Source of the DNA: Streptomyces sp. NRRL F-525
GTDB taxonomy: Bacteria; Actinomycetota; Actinomycetes; Streptomycetales; Streptomycetaceae
NCBI RefSeq assembly: GCF_000716605.1
Contig: NZ_JNXE01000046.1
Span: forward strand, 60,805 to 124,804
DNA: 64,000 bases
Direction: 5' to 3'
A program made the translations under genes and the position numbers. The notes beneath the pieces are model-generated. The model saw only the letters and a program-made list of their open reading frames with translations. It was not told the origin of the DNA and did not search any database. Positions within the stretch are counted from its first letter, which is position 1; each line of letters starts with the position of its first letter. Below, in pieces: positions 2,404 through 45,814 of this stretch.

Positions 2404-3480
2404 ATGACCTCCTCGCACGGCCGGGGCCTGCATCTGGCCGCCGCCGTCGACCAGCGGTCGGCCTACGACGCCGACTCCTACGTCGAGTTGGCGCGGCTCG
2501 CCGAGAGCGGCGGGCTCGACTTCGTGACGCTCGACGACACCTTCGCGCGCCCCGGACCCGACGCCCTCGCCGTCCTGTCCCGTGTCGCCCCGGCGACCAA
2601 CCGGGTCGGCCTGGTGCCGACCGTGACCACCACGCACACCGAGCCCTTCCATGTGCAGGCCGCGGTCGCGACCCTGGACTGGGTCAGCCGGGGCCGGGCC
2701 GGCTGGCGGCTCGACGTGTCGACCACCGAGGGCGAGGCCCGCCTCTTCGGCCGCCGGCACGCCGCGGCCGCCGACGCGTTGTGGGCGGAGGCCGGTGAAG
2801 TCGCCGAGGTGGCCGCCCAGTTGTGGGACAGCTGGGAGGACGACGCCGAGATACGGGACACGGCCACCGGCCGTTTCGTCGACCGCGACAAGCTGCACCA
2901 CGTCGACTTCGAGGGCTCCGAGTTCTCGGTCAAGGGCCCCTCGATCGTGCCCAGACCACCGCAGGGCCACCCCGTCCGCGTGGTCGACGCCACCGAGGGC
3001 CAGGCCCGGCGGACGGCCGCCCGGTACGCCGACGTGGCCCTCGTCCGCGCGGCGAGTTCCGCGCAGGCCGGGGCCGTACGGTCCGAACTGCGGGCGTCCG
3101 CCGAGAAGGCGGGCCGCGATCCCGACACCCTGCGGGTCCTGGTGAGCCTCGTCGTCGACCTCGGCGACGGCGAGCACGCGGCCGAACCGGGCCACGGCGG
3201 GGGCGGCCCCCGGCAGACCGCGCACGGCCCGCTGTACCGGGGCGGCCCGGTCGACCTCGCGGAGCTGATCGCCGGCTGGCACGGCGACCGTACCGTCGAC
3301 GGCTTCCACCTCACGCCCGTCGAACCCCGCCGCGACCTGGAGCGGCTGGTCAACGGCACGGTCGCGCTGCTCCAACACCGGGGCCTGTTCCGCACGTTCT
3401 ACCCGGGCAGCACCCTCAGGGAGCACCTGGGCCTGGCCCGGCCCGCCAACCAGTACGCCGTGACCGGGGGAGCGTCATGA
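2404..3480 (+). CDS. LLM-class flavin-dependent oxidoreductase
   Basis: A 358-residue TIM-barrel protein of the luciferase-like monooxygenase superfamily. It shows the family pattern of an N-terminal strand, a central GRAGWRLDVST stretch like the SGGRAAWNVVTS of its neighbour, and a C-terminal DGFHLTPVEP segment before LFRTFYPGSTLREHLGL, the usual ending of these enzymes. It is somewhat short and divergent for the NtaA/SnaA group. Start is an ATG with GGAAG upstream. Its stop overlaps the next gene as ATGA, implying translational coupling. The substrate cannot be read from the sequence. Confidence 0.85.
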   Translation: MTSSHGRGLHLAAAVDQRSAYDADSYVELARLAESGGLDFVTLDDTFARPGPDALAVLSRVAPATNRVGLVPTVTTTHTEPFHVQAAVATLDWVSRGRAGWRLDVSTTEGEARLFGRRHAAAADALWAEAGEVAEVAAQLWDSWEDDAEIRDTATGRFVDRDKLHHVDFEGSEFSVKGPSIVPRPPQGHPVRVVDATEGQARRTAARYADVALVRAASSAQAGAVRSELRASAEKAGRDPDTLRVLVSLVVDLGDGEHAAEPGHGGGGPRQTAHGPLYRGGPVDLAELIAGWHGDRTVDGFHLTPVEPRRDLERLVNGTVALLQHRGLFRTFYPGSTLREHLGLARPANQYAVTGGAS

Positions 3481-4781
3481 CCGTACGACCACGGAGGAAG
3501 ATCCATCTGGCCGCGCACTTCCCCGGCGTCAACAGCACCACCGTGTGGGCCGATCCGCGGTCGAGGTCCCAGATCGCCTTCTCCTCCTTCGAGCAGCTCG
3601 CCCGCACCGCCGAACGCGGCCGCTTCGACTTCTTCTTCCTCGCCGAGGGGCTGCGGCTGCGCGAACACAAGGGCCGTATCCACGACTTGGACGTCGTCGG
3701 CCGCCCCGAGTCCCTCACGGTCCTCAACGCGCTCGCCGCCGTCACCGAACGGATCGGGCTGGCCGCCACGGTCAACGCGACCTTCAACGAACCGTACGAA
3801 CTCGCCCGCAGACTCGCCACGTTGGACCACCTCAGCGGTGGCCGCGCGGCCTGGAACGTGGTGACGTCCTCCGACGCCTTCACCGGTGAGAACTTCCGGC
3901 GCGGGGGATACCTGGACCGCGCGGACCGGTACACCCGGGCGGCCGAATTCGTCGACGTGGCACGGGAGTTGTGGGACTCCTGGACCCCGGACGGAGTGTC
4001 CCGGCCCTTCGCCCACCGGGGCCGACACTTCGACATCGCGGGCGAGTTCACCGTGCCGCGCTCGCCGCAGGGGCATCCGGTGGTCATCCAGGCCGGGGAC
4101 TCGGGGGAGGGGCGGGAGTTCGCGGCACGCACCGCCGACGTCATCTTCACCCGGCACGGCACGCTGGAGGACGGCCGCGCCTTCTACGCCGACGTGAAGG
4201 GACGCCTCGCCAAGTACGGCCGCAGCGTGGACGATCTCAAGATCATGCCCGGTGTCAGTGTCGTCCTCGGCGATACCGCGGCCGAGGCCCAGGAGCGCGC
4301 CGCCGAGATCCGGCGGCAGCAGGTCTCCCCGCAGAACGCGATCCTCGCCCTGGAACAGATCTGGGGCACGGACCTCTCCGCCTACGACCCCGACGGCCCG
4401 TTCCCCGACATCGACCCGGTGCCGGAATCGTCGATCACCCAGGGGCGGACCCGGCGCGGCGACACCGTGGCGATGGCCGAAAAGTGGCGGGCGCTCTCCC
4501 GCGAGAAGGGGCTGTCCATCCGGCAGACCGTGATCGAGGCGAGCGGCCGGCAGTCCTTCATCGGCACCCCGGAGGCGGTCGCCGCCGAGCTGGAGACCTT
4601 CGTACGCCAGGACGCCGCCGACGGCTTCATCCTCGTCCCGCATCTCACCCCCGGCGGCCTCGACGAGTTCGTGGACCGGGTGGTGCCGCTGCTCCAGGAA
4701 CGTGGCGTGTTCCGTACGGAATACCGGGGCACGACCCTGCGCTCACATCTCGGGCTCCCCGACCCGGCCGGGAAGGGGTGA
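3477..4781 (+). CDS. NtaA/SnaA/DszA-type flavin-dependent monooxygenase
   Basis: A 434-residue FMN-dependent monooxygenase of the NtaA/SnaA/SoxA/DszA group. Diagnostic segments include the N-terminal HLAAHFPGVNSTTVWADP, the central LSGGRAAWNVVTSSD and the C-terminal GFILVPHLTPGGLDEFVD followed by RTEYRGTTLRSHLGL. Members oxidise nitrilotriacetate, pristinamycin precursors or organosulfur compounds with FMNH2 from a separate reductase. The ATG at 3477 overlaps the preceding stop by four bases, which fixes the start; an open extension upstream is only a shadow of the preceding gene. No dedicated flavin reductase gene lies nearby. Substrate unknown. Confidence 0.88.
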   Translation: MTVRPRRKIHLAAHFPGVNSTTVWADPRSRSQIAFSSFEQLARTAERGRFDFFFLAEGLRLREHKGRIHDLDVVGRPESLTVLNALAAVTERIGLAATVNATFNEPYELARRLATLDHLSGGRAAWNVVTSSDAFTGENFRRGGYLDRADRYTRAAEFVDVARELWDSWTPDGVSRPFAHRGRHFDIAGEFTVPRSPQGHPVVIQAGDSGEGREFAARTADVIFTRHGTLEDGRAFYADVKGRLAKYGRSVDDLKIMPGVSVVLGDTAAEAQERAAEIRRQQVSPQNAILALEQIWGTDLSAYDPDGPFPDIDPVPESSITQGRTRRGDTVAMAEKWRALSREKGLSIRQTVIEASGRQSFIGTPEAVAAELETFVRQDAADGFILVPHLTPGGLDEFVDRVVPLLQERGVFRTEYRGTTLRSHLGLPDPAGKG

Positions 4782-5861: not shown

Positions 5862-6761
5862 GTGAGGATCAAGCGCACCACCCCGCGCAGCGGAATCGCG
5901 AGACGGACCAGGCTGATCGCCGTGGCCACCGGATTCGTCGCCGCTGCCGCGTTCGCCGTCCCCACCGCGAGCGCCAGCGACGCCCACACGTTCAGCGCCA
6001 CCCAGCTCTCCGCGGCCAACTCGTCCGTGCTCAAGGCCGATGTCCCGGGCACCGCCTGGGCGGTCGACAGCACGACGAACCGTGTCGTCGTCACCGTCGA
6101 CAGCACGGTCTCCCAGGCCGAGATCGCGAAGATCAAGTCGCAGGCGGGCAGCACCGCCGACGCGATCACCATCAAGCACACGGCCGGTCAGTTCAAGAAG
6201 CTGATCACCGGTGGCGACGCCATCTACGGCGGCGCGTACCGCTGCTCGCTCGGCTTCAACGTGCACAGCGGGAGCACGTACTACTTCCTGACCGCCGGTC
6301 ACTGCGGTGAGGTCGCCTCCACCTGGTACTCCAACTCCGGTCACACCACGGTGCTGGGCACGAACGTCGGCTACAGCTTCCCGACCAACGACTTCGCGCT
6401 GGTCAAGTACACCAACACCTCGATCGCCCACCCGAGCGCGGTCGGCAGCCAGACCATCTCCAGCGCGGCCACGCCGAGCGTGGGCACCACCGTCTACCGG
6501 CGCGGCTCCACCACCGGCACGCACAGCGGCCGGGTCACCGCCCTGAACGCCACCGTCAACTACGGCAGCGGCGACATCGTCTACGGCATGATCCAGACCA
6601 CGGTCTGCGCCGAGGGCGGCGACAGCGGCGGTCCGCTCTACGGCGGCACCGTGGCCTACGGTCTGACCTCGGGCGGCAGCGGCGACTGCACCTCCGGCGG
6701 CACGACCTTCTTCCAGCCGGTCACCGAGGCGCTGAGCTACTACGGCGTGAGCGTCGGCTGA
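5862..6761 (+). CDS. sprB: Streptogrisin B-like secreted serine protease
   Basis: A 299-residue S1-family preproprotease. Residues 1-38 form a signal peptide with a long basic N-terminus. Residues 39-114 are the propeptide chaperone. The mature enzyme should start at Ile115 ([10 protein letters not shown]), giving 185 residues as in streptogrisin B. The triad is His147 (TAGHC), Asp177 (TNDFAL) and Ser255 (GDSGGP), and the cysteines needed for disulfides are present. The GTG at 5862 is chosen because AGGAGGG (5848-5854) precedes it. It is secreted and self-processed, with chymotrypsin-like specificity expected. A strong terminator follows at 6830. Confidence 0.93.
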
Positions 6762-6829
6762 CGCCCGCCTGAATCTCCTCCGCTCGGACTGCAGCCGGCG
6801 GCGGGTCTGGGTGACCCTGTACAGCTGAG

Positions 6830-39116: not shown

Positions 39117-40796
39117 TCAGCCGAGCGCTGATGCCGCCCCCTTGAGCACCAGTCCGACCCCGAGGGCCACGACGACGAGCGCCGATCCCAACGGCAGGGT
39201 CCGGCGGACCAGGAACGCCATGGGGCTGGTGGTCCAGCGGGGGCGCCGGTCCAGCACTCGGTTCATCCCTGTACCCAGCTTGACGACGGCGAATCCGGCG
39301 GCGGTGAGGGTGAGGGCGAGCCCGACGCCGTACGCGACGACGAGCAGCAGCCCGAACCACGCCTGACCGAGCGCCGCGGCCCCCACGAGAACGACCACGG
39401 CGGACGGACTCGGCACGAGCCCACCGGCGAAGCCGAGCAGGATCGTGCCGCGGACGGTGGGGGCGGTCTCGTGCGTGTGGGTGAAGCCGCCGTGCGTGTG
39501 TTCTACGGCGTGGTCGTGGCCGTGCGTGTGGCCATGGTCGTGGGGGTGGTCATGGCCGTGGTCGTGATCGTGACTGTGCGTGTGGTCGTCGTCGTGGCTG
39601 TGCGGGTGCGGGTGTGCCTCGGTGTGGGTGGACCCGGCCTCGGCGTGCGCGGAGACGAGGACCAGGGCGCGCTCGGGGGCCTTGGCGGTCTCGTGCCCGT
39701 GGTCGTGGGGATGGGGATGCGGGTGGGGGTGTGAAGTGGCTTGTGGGCGTGGGCGGTTGCGCCAGGCGCGGCGTACGAGGTTGGCGCCGGCGAAGAGGAC
39801 CAGGACGCCGCTCGCGATGCCGAGCCAGGCGATCACCGAGGGGGTCGCGGCGGACCCGGCCGTGACCAACAGGCCCAGGGCGACCACGCCGAGGGTGTGG
39901 GTGACGGTGACCGAGGCGGCGAGCGGGAGGACGTCCTTGAGGCGGGCGCGACCGCCCCGCGCGGCAGCCGTGGCCGCCATCAGGGTCTTGCCGTGACCGG
40001 GCGCGAGCGCGTGCATCGCGCCCAGGGCGATCGCGATGAGCAGGGCGACGGCGGCGAAGCCGACGGTGAGGTGGTGGCGGGCCACCAGGTTGTTCAGGGC
40101 CTCCGTCCAGCGGTCGGCGCCGCGCGGCAGCACGGAGGCTGCGGGCGGTTCCGACGTGGACTGGTCGGCGTCGGTGAGCGCCGGGCCGCCCGGGCGCGCG
40201 TGCAGGGACGCGGTCGTGGTGTCGTCGGGGGAGGAGAGCAAGTCCTTGGGGTAGCTGGTGAGTTCGTGCGAGTTCGACTTCTTCGCCACGTCCGACTTCG
40301 TGAGCGTCATCCGGTCGGCCCGCGCGGTGATCTCCCGCCAGCCGGGGCCGGTGGTCAGCCCCGCGCTGTGGAAGCCGAGGGCGACCGTGCTCCCCTTGGG
40401 CAGCGCGGCCGTCGAACTGCACTCCACGCGCAGGGTGTTGAGCCCGGCCTGCCCCGGCCGCAGCCGCGCGGTACTGGCACCGGGCGTGAGCGCGACCGTA
40501 CGGCCGTCGACGGTGACCTTGCTGCCCTCGGCGGCCTTGTCGCAGCGCTGCCGGGCCCACTCGGTCATGCCCAACTGCTTGATCTCCGGCTTGACTTGGG
40601 TGGCCGGGATCTCGGCGAGATCCTCGATGTGGGTGACGCGCAGCTGGCCCGGGGCGACGACGAGACCGTCGTAGCGGTTGACGGTGAAGTTGCCGAGGGG
40701 GTGCGCGCTCGCGGTGGCCGTGGGGACCAGCAGGAGCGCGCCGGCGGCCGTGAGGACGGCCGCCGCGGAGGCCAACAGGCGGCGGACCGGCGTCAC
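39117..40796 (-). CDS. NicO/RcnA-type nickel-cobalt transporter with His-rich loop
   Basis: A 559-residue membrane protein. The signal peptide ends near residue 31, followed by the HPLGNFTVNRYDGLVV domain, an extracytoplasmic part of about 200 residues. Then come about six helices with the NicO signature MHALAPGHGKTLMAA. Between helices 3 and 4 there is a long loop almost entirely of His, Asp and Gly (for example DHDHGHDHPHDHGH), a metal reservoir. The ATG overlaps the stop of the TPR gene (ATGA), so both are made together. Expected to move Ni or Co; direction is not certain. Confidence 0.86.
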   Translation of the reverse strand: MTPVRRLLASAAAVLTAAGALLLVPTATASAHPLGNFTVNRYDGLVVAPGQLRVTHIEDLAEIPATQVKPEIKQLGMTEWARQRCDKAAEGSKVTVDGRTVALTPGASTARLRPGQAGLNTLRVECSSTAALPKGSTVALGFHSAGLTTGPGWREITARADRMTLTKSDVAKKSNSHELTSYPKDLLSSPDDTTTASLHARPGGPALTDADQSTSEPPAASVLPRGADRWTEALNNLVARHHLTVGFAAVALLIAIALGAMHALAPGHGKTLMAATAAARGGRARLKDVLPLAASVTVTHTLGVVALGLLVTAGSAATPSVIAWLGIASGVLVLFAGANLVRRAWRNRPRPQATSHPHPHPHPHDHGHETAKAPERALVLVSAHAEAGSTHTEAHPHPHSHDDDHTHSHDHDHGHDHPHDHGHTHGHDHAVEHTHGGFTHTHETAPTVRGTILLGFAGGLVPSPSAVVVLVGAAALGQAWFGLLLVVAYGVGLALTLTAAGFAVVKLGTGMNRVLDRRPRWTTSPMAFLVRRTLPLGSALVVVALGVGLVLKGAASALG

Positions 40797-42541
40797 TTGG
40801 TCGCCTCCAACGCCTTACGGGCCTTGCTCGCGCCCAGCGGCGAGAAGCCCGGGTTCAGCTTCAGGGCCTTGGTCAGGTGGGCGCGGCCGTCGGCCTTGTG
40901 GCCCGTGGCGAGCTCGATCATGCCGAGGTGGTAGATGAACGAGGCGTTGTGGTAGTTCGTGGCCGTGGCCCGGCGGGCGTAGGGGAGGGCCTCCTTGTCG
41001 AGGCCGTTGACGTGCAGGGCCCAGGCGAGGGCGTCGGCGGTGTGCACGGTGTGGCGGCGGGCCCATTCGGCGCGGGCGGCCTTCAGAGCCGACTTGATGT
41101 TGCCGTGGTCGGCGGCGGCGAGCGCGGTGTCCAGGTCGGCGTTGACTCCGTTGGCACGGGCCAGCGCGATCCAGGCGTCGACGAGGGCGTACTGGTCGTC
41201 GGCCTTGGCCTTGTCGCCCGCGGCGCCCCGGCTCTCGTACAACTCGCCGAGTTCCACGAGGGGTTGGGGCAGCGGGTAGCGGGAGACGACCAGCTCCATG
41301 CCCTTGATGGCCTCGGCGCGGTCGCCCAGGGCGGCCTGGGCGCGGGCGCGGCCCTCCAGGGCGGGGAGGTAGTTCTCGTCGGCGGCGAGCGCACGGCCGT
41401 AGTCGGTCAGGGCGGTCTTGTAGTCGCCCTGGTTCCAGGCGAGTTGACCGAGCGTGCCGGCCACGTACGAGATGTCGCCGGGGGAGGTGGCGGCCGCGAG
41501 GGCCTGCTCCAGGACCTTGCGGGCCGTGGTCACGTCCCCGCGCAGCTCGTGCACGTACGCGTAGCGGGTGAAGACCGGGACGCCGGGCTTGCGGGCGTCC
41601 GCGAGGTCGGCGGCCTTCTCCGCATCGGCGTAGCGGCCGAGTTCGACGAGGGCGTCGATCCGCGAGCACAGGGCGCGTTCGCTGTACGGGTTCTCCTTCA
41701 GCACCTGGTCCGCGTAGGTCAGCGCCTGCGCGAACTCGTGCCGGGCGGCGGCGAGCGCGGCGCGGCCCTCCAGGGCGTTCTCGTTGCCGGGCGAGATCTT
41801 CAACGACCGCTGCAAGGCGGCCTGCGCCTGCGGATACCGGGACGGGTCGCCCTTCGTCCGCGCCTGCTCCACATACGCGAGCCCGAGCGTCGCCCACCCG
41901 TCGAAGTCCTTGGGCTGCGTGCGCAGATGAGCCTGTAGCGAGGCGATACTCGCGTCCAGACTCCCGCTGGCGAGCAGCTCCGGCGACACGGCACTGGAGG
42001 CGGCGACAGCGGTGGCACCGCTGTCCTTCGCCGCGCCGATGGCGATCGCCCCGGCGGTCATCGCGACGGCCAACAGGGCGGCACACCCGGCGAGTTGGAC
42101 ATTCCTCCAGCGACGGCCCGCGGCGGCTACTCGGCGGACGGCGGCGACGCGTTCGTCGTCGACGTGGGGGTGGGGGTGTGTGTGGCTGTGGGGGGCGGTG
42201 GATCCATCGGTGTGATCGGGATCGTGATCGTGGTGATGGTCATGATCGTGGTCGTGGTCGGGGCCGTGACTGTGAGAGTGGCCCGGCTCATCTGCGCTGT
42301 CCTGCGCGGGAGTTGGGGCCTGGTCCGCGTCGTCGCCGACGGTGGGGGTCGGCTCGGCGGAGTCCGCGGCGGTGTCCGTGTCCGCGTCCCGCTCACCCTC
42401 CGGCCCGGCGCCTTCCTTCGTGCTGCCCCCGTCCTCGCCCCCCGAGTCGTCGCCCTGTTCCCACAGCCGCTCCCACTCCCGCTGGGTCGCCGCCGGCTGC
42501 TTGTCCTCCGTCGGCTTGTCGTCGTTCTCGCGCGGGGCCAT
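40793..42541 (-). CDS. Membrane-anchored TPR protein with His-rich segment
   Basis: A 582-residue protein. The N-terminal 130 residues are acidic with a His-Asp-rich block (about 88-126, for example HDHDHDHHHDHD). A helix at about 148-171 anchors it. Residues 185-575 form about ten tetratricopeptide repeats (DFDGWATLGLAYVEQ, PYSERALCSRIDALVE and others) in the extracytoplasmic space. The His block probably binds the metal that the neighbouring NicO protein carries. It overlaps that gene by four bases. The TPR region may hold a partner such as the DUF4331 protein. Confidence 0.84.
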   Translation of the reverse strand: MAPRENDDKPTEDKQPAATQREWERLWEQGDDSGGEDGGSTKEGAGPEGERDADTDTAADSAEPTPTVGDDADQAPTPAQDSADEPGHSHSHGPDHDHDHDHHHDHDPDHTDGSTAPHSHTHPHPHVDDERVAAVRRVAAAGRRWRNVQLAGCAALLAVAMTAGAIAIGAAKDSGATAVAASSAVSPELLASGSLDASIASLQAHLRTQPKDFDGWATLGLAYVEQARTKGDPSRYPQAQAALQRSLKISPGNENALEGRAALAAARHEFAQALTYADQVLKENPYSERALCSRIDALVELGRYADAEKAADLADARKPGVPVFTRYAYVHELRGDVTTARKVLEQALAAATSPGDISYVAGTLGQLAWNQGDYKTALTDYGRALAADENYLPALEGRARAQAALGDRAEAIKGMELVVSRYPLPQPLVELGELYESRGAAGDKAKADDQYALVDAWIALARANGVNADLDTALAAADHGNIKSALKAARAEWARRHTVHTADALAWALHVNGLDKEALPYARRATATNYHNASFIYHLGMIELATGHKADGRAHLTKALKLNPGFSPLGASKARKALEATK

Positions 42542-42664: not shown

Positions 42665-44206
42665 TTAGTACGGGCGGTGGGTCATCCGGCGGCGCCACCA
42701 TGCGACGGCCGCGCCGATCAGCAGGACACCGGCGACACCGGAGGCCGCCGAGGCGACCATCAGCATCATGTTGTTGCTGTCGGAGGAGGATCCCGCCGGC
42801 TGCAACGCGTCGCCCAGCTGGTTCTTGACGTCGCTGCCGCTGGTCGTGCCCTTGGCGAGCGGGCCGCGGGAACCCGAGGTGGGCTCGGCGACGTACGGGA
42901 AGTACTTCTCGAAGCCCTTGTCGTTCTTGTCGACCGCGTCGCCCAAGTCGTTCTTGGAACCGACGAGTTCACCCTCCATGACCTGGAGCGCGGAGTCGAT
43001 CACGTCGTCGGTGAGCCGACGGCCGTTCGGGAAGCCCGCGTTGTCGCCGTCGAGGACACCGAGGCGCTTGGGGTGCGCGGCCGGCTTGATCGACGTGTTC
43101 AGGCGCAGCATCTCCGACGGCTTCGCGTACGGCTGCTCGGTGTTGAGGCCCTTGACGCCCGTGAGGAACACGCTGACGAGGTCGTTGCGCGGCTCGCTCG
43201 GTGCCTTGATCTTGTAGATCGACTCGATGAGCTTGGGGATCTCGGGCTCGGTCACGTTCTTCAGGAACTGCGCGTCGTCCTTGGGCTCGGACGCGTTGAA
43301 CTTGTCCTTGTCCTTCTGCGGGTTGACGACCTCGTTGACCAACGGGTTGCCCAGCCGCGAGACCTGCGTGTAGTACCCCTGCGCGTTCTTGCGCTGGGTC
43401 GTGGAGTAAATACCCACGGTCGGGCGGGACTTGGACTGCCGGATCAGGTCGTTCGGCACCTGGAGGGCGATCGTGTTGACGTTGTAGCCCTTGAGGGTGT
43501 CGTTGCCGACCTCGCTCAGGTTGCCGCCGTAGAGCAGGTCGAAGACGCGCAGGTCCGCGAAGAACGGGTCGTCGGCCTGGCCCGCGAAGGTCGCGCCGCC
43601 GTTGGTCGTCTTGTAGATCGCCTGCGAGCGCAGCTTGGCGTAGTCCGGCATCGACGCGTCGCCGACGTCCGAGGGCGCCGCCGGGATGTCGTCGGCGATC
43701 TTCGTCTTGTAGACCGCCTTGCCCTTCTTCAGCTTGATCAGCTCGACGTCGTACGACTGCGTGATGTTGAGGTCGGGGTCGGTGAGGCTGGTGACCGGAC
43801 CCGTGTTGTAGAGGAACGTCTTCTTGTTCTTGATCTGCGTGCTGAAGGTGTAGCGGAAGATGAAGTCGTCCAGCGCGTCACCGTTGTTGTCGATGTGCAG
43901 GTCGTACTGGGCGTCGTCCGCGAACTGGTAGAAGTTCGGGCCGCCGGCGGGCTCCTCGAACGGTATCCAGTTCGCCACGATCGTCGTGGTGTCCGGCTTG
44001 TCCGGGCTGACGAACGCGTACAGGTCCGTGTTGTCGTACTGCGGGGTCCCCGAGATCAGGGGAGCCTCCCGGTGGGAGGAGGCCGCGGCCACTCCCGGTT
44101 CCAGCGCGGCCGTACCGGCGGCTGCGAGCCCCCCGGCGGCCAGCGCGCCACATACGAGGGCCGCGAGCTTCCTGCGTCCCGCACCGCTCCTGGAGATAGG
44201 TGTCAT
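42665..44206 (-). CDS. DUF4331 surface protein
   Basis: A 513-residue protein of the DUF4331 family. A signal peptide ends near residue 40 and the mature N-terminus has the family hallmark SSHREAPLISGTPQYDNTDL with YAFVSPD. A DUF4331 body follows, then a Ser-rich stalk and a C-terminal helix (MLMVASAASGVAGVLLIGAA) with an Arg-rich stop-transfer tail. It should face the outside, anchored at the membrane. The family's role is not established. The ATG at 44206 is preferred over a TTG seven codons upstream. Its upstream region holds a SigK-like promoter. Confidence 0.88.
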   Translation of the reverse strand: MTPISRSGAGRRKLAALVCGALAAGGLAAAGTAALEPGVAAASSHREAPLISGTPQYDNTDLYAFVSPDKPDTTTIVANWIPFEEPAGGPNFYQFADDAQYDLHIDNNGDALDDFIFRYTFSTQIKNKKTFLYNTGPVTSLTDPDLNITQSYDVELIKLKKGKAVYKTKIADDIPAAPSDVGDASMPDYAKLRSQAIYKTTNGGATFAGQADDPFFADLRVFDLLYGGNLSEVGNDTLKGYNVNTIALQVPNDLIRQSKSRPTVGIYSTTQRKNAQGYYTQVSRLGNPLVNEVVNPQKDKDKFNASEPKDDAQFLKNVTEPEIPKLIESIYKIKAPSEPRNDLVSVFLTGVKGLNTEQPYAKPSEMLRLNTSIKPAAHPKRLGVLDGDNAGFPNGRRLTDDVIDSALQVMEGELVGSKNDLGDAVDKNDKGFEKYFPYVAEPTSGSRGPLAKGTTSGSDVKNQLGDALQPAGSSSDSNNMMLMVASAASGVAGVLLIGAAVAWWRRRMTHRPY

Positions 44207-44245: not shown

Positions 44246-44272
44246 ATTCGGAGCAGGTGCCGGGGCGGATTG
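44246..44272 (-). promoter_or_regulatory. SigK-like promoter of the DUF4331 gene
   Basis: On the minus strand CAATCC (44267-44272) is followed by 16 bases and CGAAT (44246-44250), 39 bases before the DUF4331 ATG. It matches the CCATCC-N16/17-CGAA pattern I recall for mycobacterial SigK promoters, five of six at -35. A second copy faces the opposite way at 44348. Confidence 0.6.
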
Positions 44273-44347
44273 GTCAAACCTGAAAAGTTTTTTTGGCGCC
44301 TTCCAATCCGTCCCTTGACCCGCGTTTTGGGCGCCCTGATCCGTAAC

Positions 44348-44374
44348 CCATCCGTAGAGGTGTTCGCTACGAAC
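44348..44374 (+). promoter_or_regulatory. SigK-like autoregulatory promoter
   Basis: CCATCC (44348-44353), a 16-base spacer and CGAAC (44370-44374) lie 28 bases before the sigma gene ATG. The -10 element is part of the palindrome GTTCG-CTA-CGAAC (44362-44374). ECF sigma genes are often read from their own promoter type. Confidence 0.65.
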
Positions 44375-44402: not shown

Positions 44403-44978
44403 ATGGGCCGCGTGCGGTCGAAGAGTGGGGGACGGGTGGAGGCCGACGAGCTCCTGGTGCAGGTCGCGGCAGGTGATCAACGGGCCTTCGAGGAGCTGTA
44501 CGGACTGGTGTCCGGGCCGGTGTTCGGACTGGTGCGCCGCGTGGTGCGCGACCCGGCGCAGTCCGAGGAGGTGTCCCAGGAGGTGCTGCTGGAGATGTGG
44601 CGGTCCGCCGCCCGCTTCGACCCCGGCCGGGGCAGCGCCCTGTCCTGGGTCCTCACCCTCGCCCACCGCCGGGCCGTCGACCGGGTGCGCAGCGCCCGCG
44701 CGGCCGGTGAACGCGAGCAGCGCGAGGCCCGCCGCTCCCACCACCCCGCCTTCGACCAGGTGACCGAGGAGGTCGAGGCAGGCCTGGAACGGCAGTTGGT
44801 GCGCCGCTGCCTGGACCGCCTCACGGCGCTGCAACGGCAGTCCGTCACCCTCGCCTATTACGACGGCTATACGTACCGTGAAGTGGCCGAGCGGCTCTCG
44901 CTGCCGCTGGGCACGGTCAAGACCCGCATGCGTGACGGACTCACCCGGCTGCGCGACTGCCTGGGAGGTGTCGCATGA
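44403..44978 (+). CDS. sigK: ECF sigma factor (SigK-like)
   Basis: A 191-residue ECF sigma factor. Region 2 (about residues 25-90) contains FGLVRRVVRDPAQSEEVSQE and WRSAARFDPGRGSALSWV; region 4 (about 130-190) has LTALQRQSVTLAYYDGYTYR and PLGTVKTRMRDGLTRLR. The length and motifs fit the SigK group. The ATG at 44403 is preferred over GTG 44382, which would leave only seven bases between the start and the -10 element. It overlaps the anti-sigma gene (ATGA). It probably directs its own operon and the divergent DUF4331 genes. Confidence 0.88.
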   Translation: MGRVRSKSGGRVEADELLVQVAAGDQRAFEELYGLVSGPVFGLVRRVVRDPAQSEEVSQEVLLEMWRSAARFDPGRGSALSWVLTLAHRRAVDRVRSARAAGEREQREARRSHHPAFDQVTEEVEAGLERQLVRRCLDRLTALQRQSVTLAYYDGYTYREVAERLSLPLGTVKTRMRDGLTRLRDCLGGVA

Positions 44979-45814
44979 GCGCTCTCGCCCGACTGTTCGG
45001 CCGGGGGGACGTCCACTCGCTCGCGGCCCCCTACGCCCTGGACGCCCTGGAACCCGGTGAGCGCCGCCAGTTCGAGAAACACCTCAGGGGCTGCGACCGC
45101 TGCGCCGAGGAGGTGCGCGCGCTGACCGAGGACGCGGTCCGGCTGGCCTGGTCCACGGCCGCCCAGCCACCGCTCGCCATGCGCGACCGCGTGCTGGCCG
45201 CCGTACGGCAGACGCCGCAGGAACCCGGACCCCTTCGGGAACATGTGCGGGAACCACAGGCGCGGGAGTACACACCCCGGCTGCCGGCACATGTGTGGGG
45301 CACACAGCCGCAGGCGTCGCGCGCCCGCGTGCCCCAACGCCGCCCGTTCTTCGTGCCGTTCGCCACCGCGACGGCCACCGCGGCCCTCGTCGTGGCCTCG
45401 CTCTTCGCCGTGCAGGCGAACAAGACACAGGACAAGCTGGACGCCGCGCAGGCTCAGTCGCGTGACATCGCACACGTTCTCGCAGCTCCCGACGCCCGTG
45501 CGACCACCGGCGCGGACACCGCGGGCCGGAGCATCGGCGTGATCGCCTCCGCCTCCGAGGGGCGCGCGGTCGTCACCCTGAGCGGATACGGCGCGCTGCC
45601 GAGCGGGCGCGTGCATCAACTGTGGCTGATGCGCCCCGATGTGCAACCGCGCTCCCTCGGGCTCTTCAAGGACGACACGCCCTTGGTGGCCACCGGACTC
45701 GACAAAACTGCAACATCACTCGCAGTGACCGTCGAGCCCGACGGGGGCTCAGCGCAGCCCACAACTCAGCCAGTTGTCCAACTCGCCCTGAAATCGGTCG
45801 GATTCGGAGAGTAA
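44975..45814 (+). CDS. rskA: Zinc-finger anti-sigma factor (RskA-like)
   Basis: A 279-residue anti-sigma factor. The cytoplasmic N-terminus has the ZAS zinc motif H-x3-C-x2-C (His36, Cys40, Cys43 in KHLRGCDRCAEEV). One helix at about 126-147 is followed by an extracytoplasmic RskA domain with VVTLSGYGALPSGRVHQLWL and the typical C-terminal beta part. It should hold SigK inactive until cleaved by regulated proteolysis on a signal outside the cell. The start overlaps the sigma stop by four bases. The inducing signal is unknown; the adjacent metal genes suggest metal or redox stress. Confidence 0.88.
   Translation: MSALARLFGRGDVHSLAAPYALDALEPGERRQFEKHLRGCDRCAEEVRALTEDAVRLAWSTAAQPPLAMRDRVLAAVRQTPQEPGPLREHVREPQAREYTPRLPAHVWGTQPQASRARVPQRRPFFVPFATATATAALVVASLFAVQANKTQDKLDAAQAQSRDIAHVLAAPDARATTGADTAGRSIGVIASASEGRAVVTLSGYGALPSGRVHQLWLMRPDVQPRSLGLFKDDTPLVATGLDKTATSLAVTVEPDGGSAQPTTQPVVQLALKSVGFGE

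Follow-up and report, generated by a model that had tools for sequence, protein, structure and literature searches.

We conclude that a SigK-type ECF sigma factor gene in Streptomyces sp. NRRL F-525 very probably controls the divergently oriented operon beside it, which would encode a DUF4331 protein, a TPR membrane protein, and a NicO-type transporter. Each side of the shared intergenic region carries its own SigK-type promoter. The promoter facing the DUF4331 gene lies on the minus strand at 44246..44272 (-35 element CAATCC at 44272-44267, N16 spacer, -10 element CGAAT at 44250-44246), and the one facing sigK lies on the plus strand at 44348..44374 (CCATCC at 44348-44353, N16, CGAAC at 44370-44374). 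Both agree with the consensus CCATCC/CGAA that Veyrier reportedly described for mycobacterial SigK in 2008. The preliminary description had noted two -35/-10 pairs facing opposite ways with an equal 16-base spacer, and this is exact: the two sites are the only ATCC-N16-CGAA matches on either strand of the 64-kb window (the whole stretch of DNA analyzed). The shuffle mean for the window is 1.23, so the count of two is unremarkable by itself, and with one mismatch allowed CMATCC-N16-CGAA gives 4 window matches where 6.1 are expected. The 10.94-Mb genome holds 19 matches to CMATCC-N16-CGAA, compared with 3 to the reversed pattern, and two of the 19 fall in this intergenic region, each facing its gene. 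The narrower CMATCC-N16-CGAAT occurs twice in the genome, at the DUF4331 site and before a small zf-HC2 protein. It is because the pair is conserved across loci, and not because of the window count, that we regard it as more than chance.

The rightward gene (44436..44978, plus strand) encodes a SigK-type ECF sigma factor (ECF18/19) scoring 295.5 bits on NF007228, for which the cut-off is 226. Its best solved relative is M. tuberculosis SigK (4nqw), and alignment with that structure places two of its cysteines at the SigK positions 133 and 183; numbered from 44403, these are C136/C186, invariant in the 10 sequences of alignment A1. Three starts are candidates for the open reading frame (44382, 44403, and GTG 44436). 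We favor GTG 44436 because a G-rich stretch is conserved before GTGGAGGC and because, in the 15 loci measured, the distances from the -10 element to the GTG differ by non-multiples of three. The following gene (44975..45814, plus strand) encodes an RskA-type membrane anti-sigma factor, with RskA_C (104.8 bits), RskA_N (32.6 bits), and zf-HC2 all over cut-off. The profile scores thus bear out both the SigK family of the sigma factor and the RskA type of its partner. The anti-sigma segment HSLAAPYALDAL resembles AS19-1, the helix motif HTLAGAYALDAL of RskA-group anti-sigma factors as given in PMC7406223. In a tree of 42 rows, the DUF4331-facing Streptomyces sigma factors form one clade of their own (98/92). 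They stand apart from a second Streptomyces type (84/93), and their clade does not include the SigKs that are linked to DUF4331 in other families; 4nqw sits on a long branch, and its placement is unsure.

In the mechanism that we propose, the SigK-type sigma factor would be restrained by the RskA-type membrane anti-sigma factor until an envelope signal inactivates the latter. Freed SigK would then transcribe its own sigK-rskA operon rightward, as positive feedback, and the DUF4331-TPR-NicO genes leftward, and both sides would rise together. Transcription would start at the two sites described, and the three leftward genes would form a single transcript. From the sequence, we hold SigK-type regulation through both promoters to be highly probable, and the adjacent sigma factor to be probably the main driver, with somewhat less assurance. 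To our knowledge, the signal answered by SigK-RskA is still unsettled, even in mycobacteria.

Within the genus, DUF4331 matches were found in 68 of 121 genomes and a SigK-type sigma factor (E 1e-60) in 92 of 121. Seventy-five DUF4331 regions were fetched, and 69 of them plus the window were analyzed as 70 loci; the promoter counts exclude L104-L109, which match the window's DUF4331 protein weakly or not at all, and short partial matches. SigK is divergent from and adjacent to DUF4331 in 41 of the 70 loci, and every one of these 41 has a DUF4331-facing SigK-type promoter, of the N16-CGAA form in 29 and, by our judgment in counting them, as an N17 variant in 12 (ten CAATCC/CGTAT, one CAAACC/CGTAT, and one CAATCC/CGAAG). 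Where sigK is not adjacent, the site precedes only 4 of 29 DUF4331 genes. The difference corresponds to a nominal Fisher p of 4e-15 with the N17 variants included and, for N16-CGAA alone (29/41 versus 4/29), of 2e-6, kinship being ignored in both. Some genomes belong to more than one of the genus, class, and named sets, and related rows cannot be counted as independent. Of the 41 loci with adjacent sigK, 25 retain the sigma-facing site and 16 have it lost or degenerate (11 of the 12 with N17 and 5 of the 29 with N16 on the DUF4331 side); its presence is lineage dependent. The expectation that orthologous loci would conserve the motifs on both sides therefore held for the DUF4331 side (41/41, or 29/41 without N17) but only in part for the sigma side; the refuting outcome named in the preliminary description, motifs lacking conservation at such loci, was not observed.

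The four nonadjacent loci with a site comprise two lone second copies of DUF4331 (L056 and L071) and two DUF4331-TPR-NicO clusters (L082 and L085), each in a genome with SigK elsewhere. SigK is likewise encoded elsewhere in the genomes of 22 of the 25 siteless nonadjacent loci, which indicates that its presence alone does not bring the site and that SigK does not control the DUF4331 operon in every case. None of the more distant paralogues of the DUF4331-TPR-NicO cluster (L083, L087, L088, and L090-L098) has the site. Four loci of the DUF4331-TPR-NicO type without adjacent sigK (L047, L059, L073, and L076) have in common an upstream pair, GAACAAGAC or GAACAACAC ... CGTACTG, seen by eye and perhaps read by another ECF sigma factor.

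The arrangement extends beyond Streptomyces. A sample of the class has DUF4331 matches (E 1e-60) in 54 of its 296 genomes and in 29 of its 114 genera. A scan covering 300 bases upstream of the DUF4331 start and the first 60 of the gene found C[ACG]ATCC-N16-CGAA[CT] in 12 of 20 fetched non-Streptomyces loci and not in the other 8, where shuffles give 0.025%. In the f18 family the DUF4331 gene faces TPR-NicO, and two loci (L169 and L174) have a site each way. One locus (L183) has sigK-rskA-DUF4331-TPR-NicO in line with a site just before DUF4331, and another (L187) has sigK-rskA upstream of DUF4331. Among the best 80 of 592 named loci, the site is present in 53 of the 58 whose fetched region includes a SigK versus 7 of the 22 whose region does not (shuffles, 0.3%), and 33 also have a sigK-facing site; L200, from S. 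coeruleorubidus ATCC 13740, is an example with both sites. The five of these 80 with SigK in the fetched region and no motif match are L194, L199, L234, L254, and L256, and the motif occurs in none of the seven Actinomadura/Actinoallomurus loci among them. The association with sigK within the genus and its recurrence outside it thus support the earlier suggestion that the DUF4331-TPR-NicO genes are a candidate SigK regulon.

A further conserved element, CCCGCGTTTT-N10-ATCCGTA, lies upstream of the sigma-side promoter (44319..44345, plus strand) and might act as an additional promoter or as an operator. It emerged when intergenic DNA from 31 of the 41 loci with adjacent sigK was aligned, is kept in most of them with a few changes in some rows, stands at a near-constant distance from the sigma-side -35 element, and has its sole exact match in this genome here. 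Because it is present also in loci with a decayed CCATCC site, sigK might be driven mainly by a promoter within this block, CCATCC-N16-CGAAC being a minor or decaying feedback promoter. We consider this rather unlikely, though the likeliest of the alternatives, as 25 of 41 loci have an undamaged CCATCC site and we know of no promoter class that the block matches.

Feedback through CCATCC-N16-CGAAC, our preferred reading, leaves the identity of the sigma factor to be considered, as the same genome encodes a second SigK-type sigma factor (C25; SigK model, 280.6 bits) that could read the same two sites. Given this second protein, the pair of sites by itself does not establish the preliminary claim of a single sigma factor driving both sides. 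The C25 gene (L004, about 6150-6810) itself has CAATCC-N16-CGGAT upstream, and a gene for a lactonase-like beta-propeller protein stands before it; second-type sigma genes of other Streptomyces are preceded by the same CAATCC-N16-CGAAT as the DUF4331 gene. The C25 protein might then be the main reader of both sites, or share them with the adjacent sigma factor, which would not be the sole driver. We think this improbable, since the promoter tracks the adjacency of sigK (41/41 versus 4/29) and since 22 of the 25 siteless loci are in genomes with a SigK-type sigma factor elsewhere.

Across the 121 Streptomyces genomes, CMATCC-N16-CGAAT occurs 463 times, versus 21 for the reversed pattern, with a mean of 4.35 matches in the 92 SigK-positive genomes and 2.17 in the 29 SigK-negative ones (p 9e-7). 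As the latter value exceeds the control of 0.21, SigK does not account for all of the matches, and other sigma factors or base composition contribute. The motif also precedes second-type sigK genes, molybdopterin oxidoreductases, flavin amine oxidases, and a fasciclin protein; the 35 regions behind this statement were picked by hand among the matches listed, with CAATCC favored, and serve as examples, not rates. In 11 fetched loci the motif stands before members of one protein cluster, and both of the two members scanned contain zf-HC2. In the genome studied here (C2), one such site precedes the gene of a 216-amino-acid zf-HC2 protein (L110:4323-5104) with another ECF sigma factor gene nearby (3083-3637), and cross-talk between sigma systems is possible there. 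It is most improbable that the two intergenic matches are chance occurrences, or repressor binding sites instead of promoters, for although the window count is within the range of shuffles, the spacing is near fixed, each site is oriented to its gene, and the conservation spans families.

We next consider what the leftward operon would do. Its first gene (42665..44206, minus strand; PF14224, 524 bits) encodes a DUF4331 protein that is predicted to be exported and has a hydrophobic C-terminal segment; we found no solved relative at E 1 and no mention of the family in the literature searched. The second gene (40793..42541, minus strand) encodes a TPR membrane protein with TPR families over cut-off and a His-rich N-terminal segment. 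The third (39117..40796, minus strand) encodes a NicO-type transporter, which resembles NicO/RcnA nickel-cobalt transporters in its NicO Pfam domain (PF03824, 40.4 bits; cut-off, 27.7) and very His-rich loop. Unlike them, it scores below the RcnA-type NCBIfam cut-off (NF007454, 119.2 bits; cut-off, 195), and its predicted exported N-terminal part starts HPLGNF. Of 169 loci, 148 have a HPLGNF-like stretch; translation in six frames gives 155 matches, and at least 138 directly follow A-x-A.

Comparison with homologues predicts that the mature DUF4331 protein begins with SSHREAP (44060..44080, minus strand), behind a signal peptide ending in A-x-A. AxA|SSHREAP, with alanine at -1 and -3, is found in all of the best 120 of 7994 DUF4331 homologues, and SSHREAP is invariant in alignments A2 (made without L172 and L088) and A3 and is seen also in exported forms outside the genus (L169-L185). 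In three diverged loci without TPR or NicO matches (L186, L187, and L188), SSHREAP comes immediately after a start codon. L186 and L187 have an in-frame stop so close upstream that a signal peptide could not fit, and the lack of one is likely, though not forced, for L188. The six loci L104-L109, whose DUF4331 matches are short or weak, show an SSH start of neither kind. The start codon in the diverged forms suggests that an N-terminal Ser-Ser-His is functional, and signal peptidase in most members and removal of Met in the signal-less branch would yield the same Ser-Ser-His N-terminus.

In other proteins, an N-terminal X-X-His, the form known as ATCUN (amino-terminal Cu/Ni), binds Cu(II) and Ni(II). 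Together with the NicO domain and the His-rich segments, the predicted Ser-Ser-His suggests a module that handles Cu or Ni in the cell envelope, a reading that we offer with less assurance than the regulatory one. Our view of a metal role for the predicted module is tentative, and the same caution applies to the fuller proposal: an undescribed envelope Cu/Ni module under actinomycete SigK-type sigma factors, in which Ser-Ser-His of DUF4331, made by signal peptidase or by Met removal, might bind the metal alongside the N-terminal His of NicO and the His-rich TPR protein, and RskA might sense metal or redox state. A cytosolic DUF4331 branch is at odds with the idea that all members of the family act in the envelope.

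MPT70 and MPT83 of mycobacteria are fasciclin-domain proteins. Both are known SigK targets according to PMC7509140, which also provides the closest known system, the mpt83-sigK-rskA cassette of the mycobacterial SigK regulon (further background is found in PMC4821874, PMC10449499, and PMC3078919). The locus studied here differs from that cassette in that the target would be DUF4331-TPR-NicO, not a fasciclin protein, and no fasciclin domain was found in the ten proteins scanned between 37449 and 50960. It shares with the second-type (B) SigK loci of Streptomyces the promoter motif and the best solved relative, 4nqw, whereas the motif targets near second-type sigK genes are a molybdopterin oxidoreductase, a flavin amine oxidase, a DUF1295 protein, and a fasciclin protein. 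Thus, soil actinomycetes would have a second, widely conserved SigK target module, with hints of metal chemistry. The DUF4331 family gains a hypothesis about its function and a candidate for its regulator, and the Streptomyces locus would be a tractable, harmless system in which to test the signal that SigK-RskA answers.
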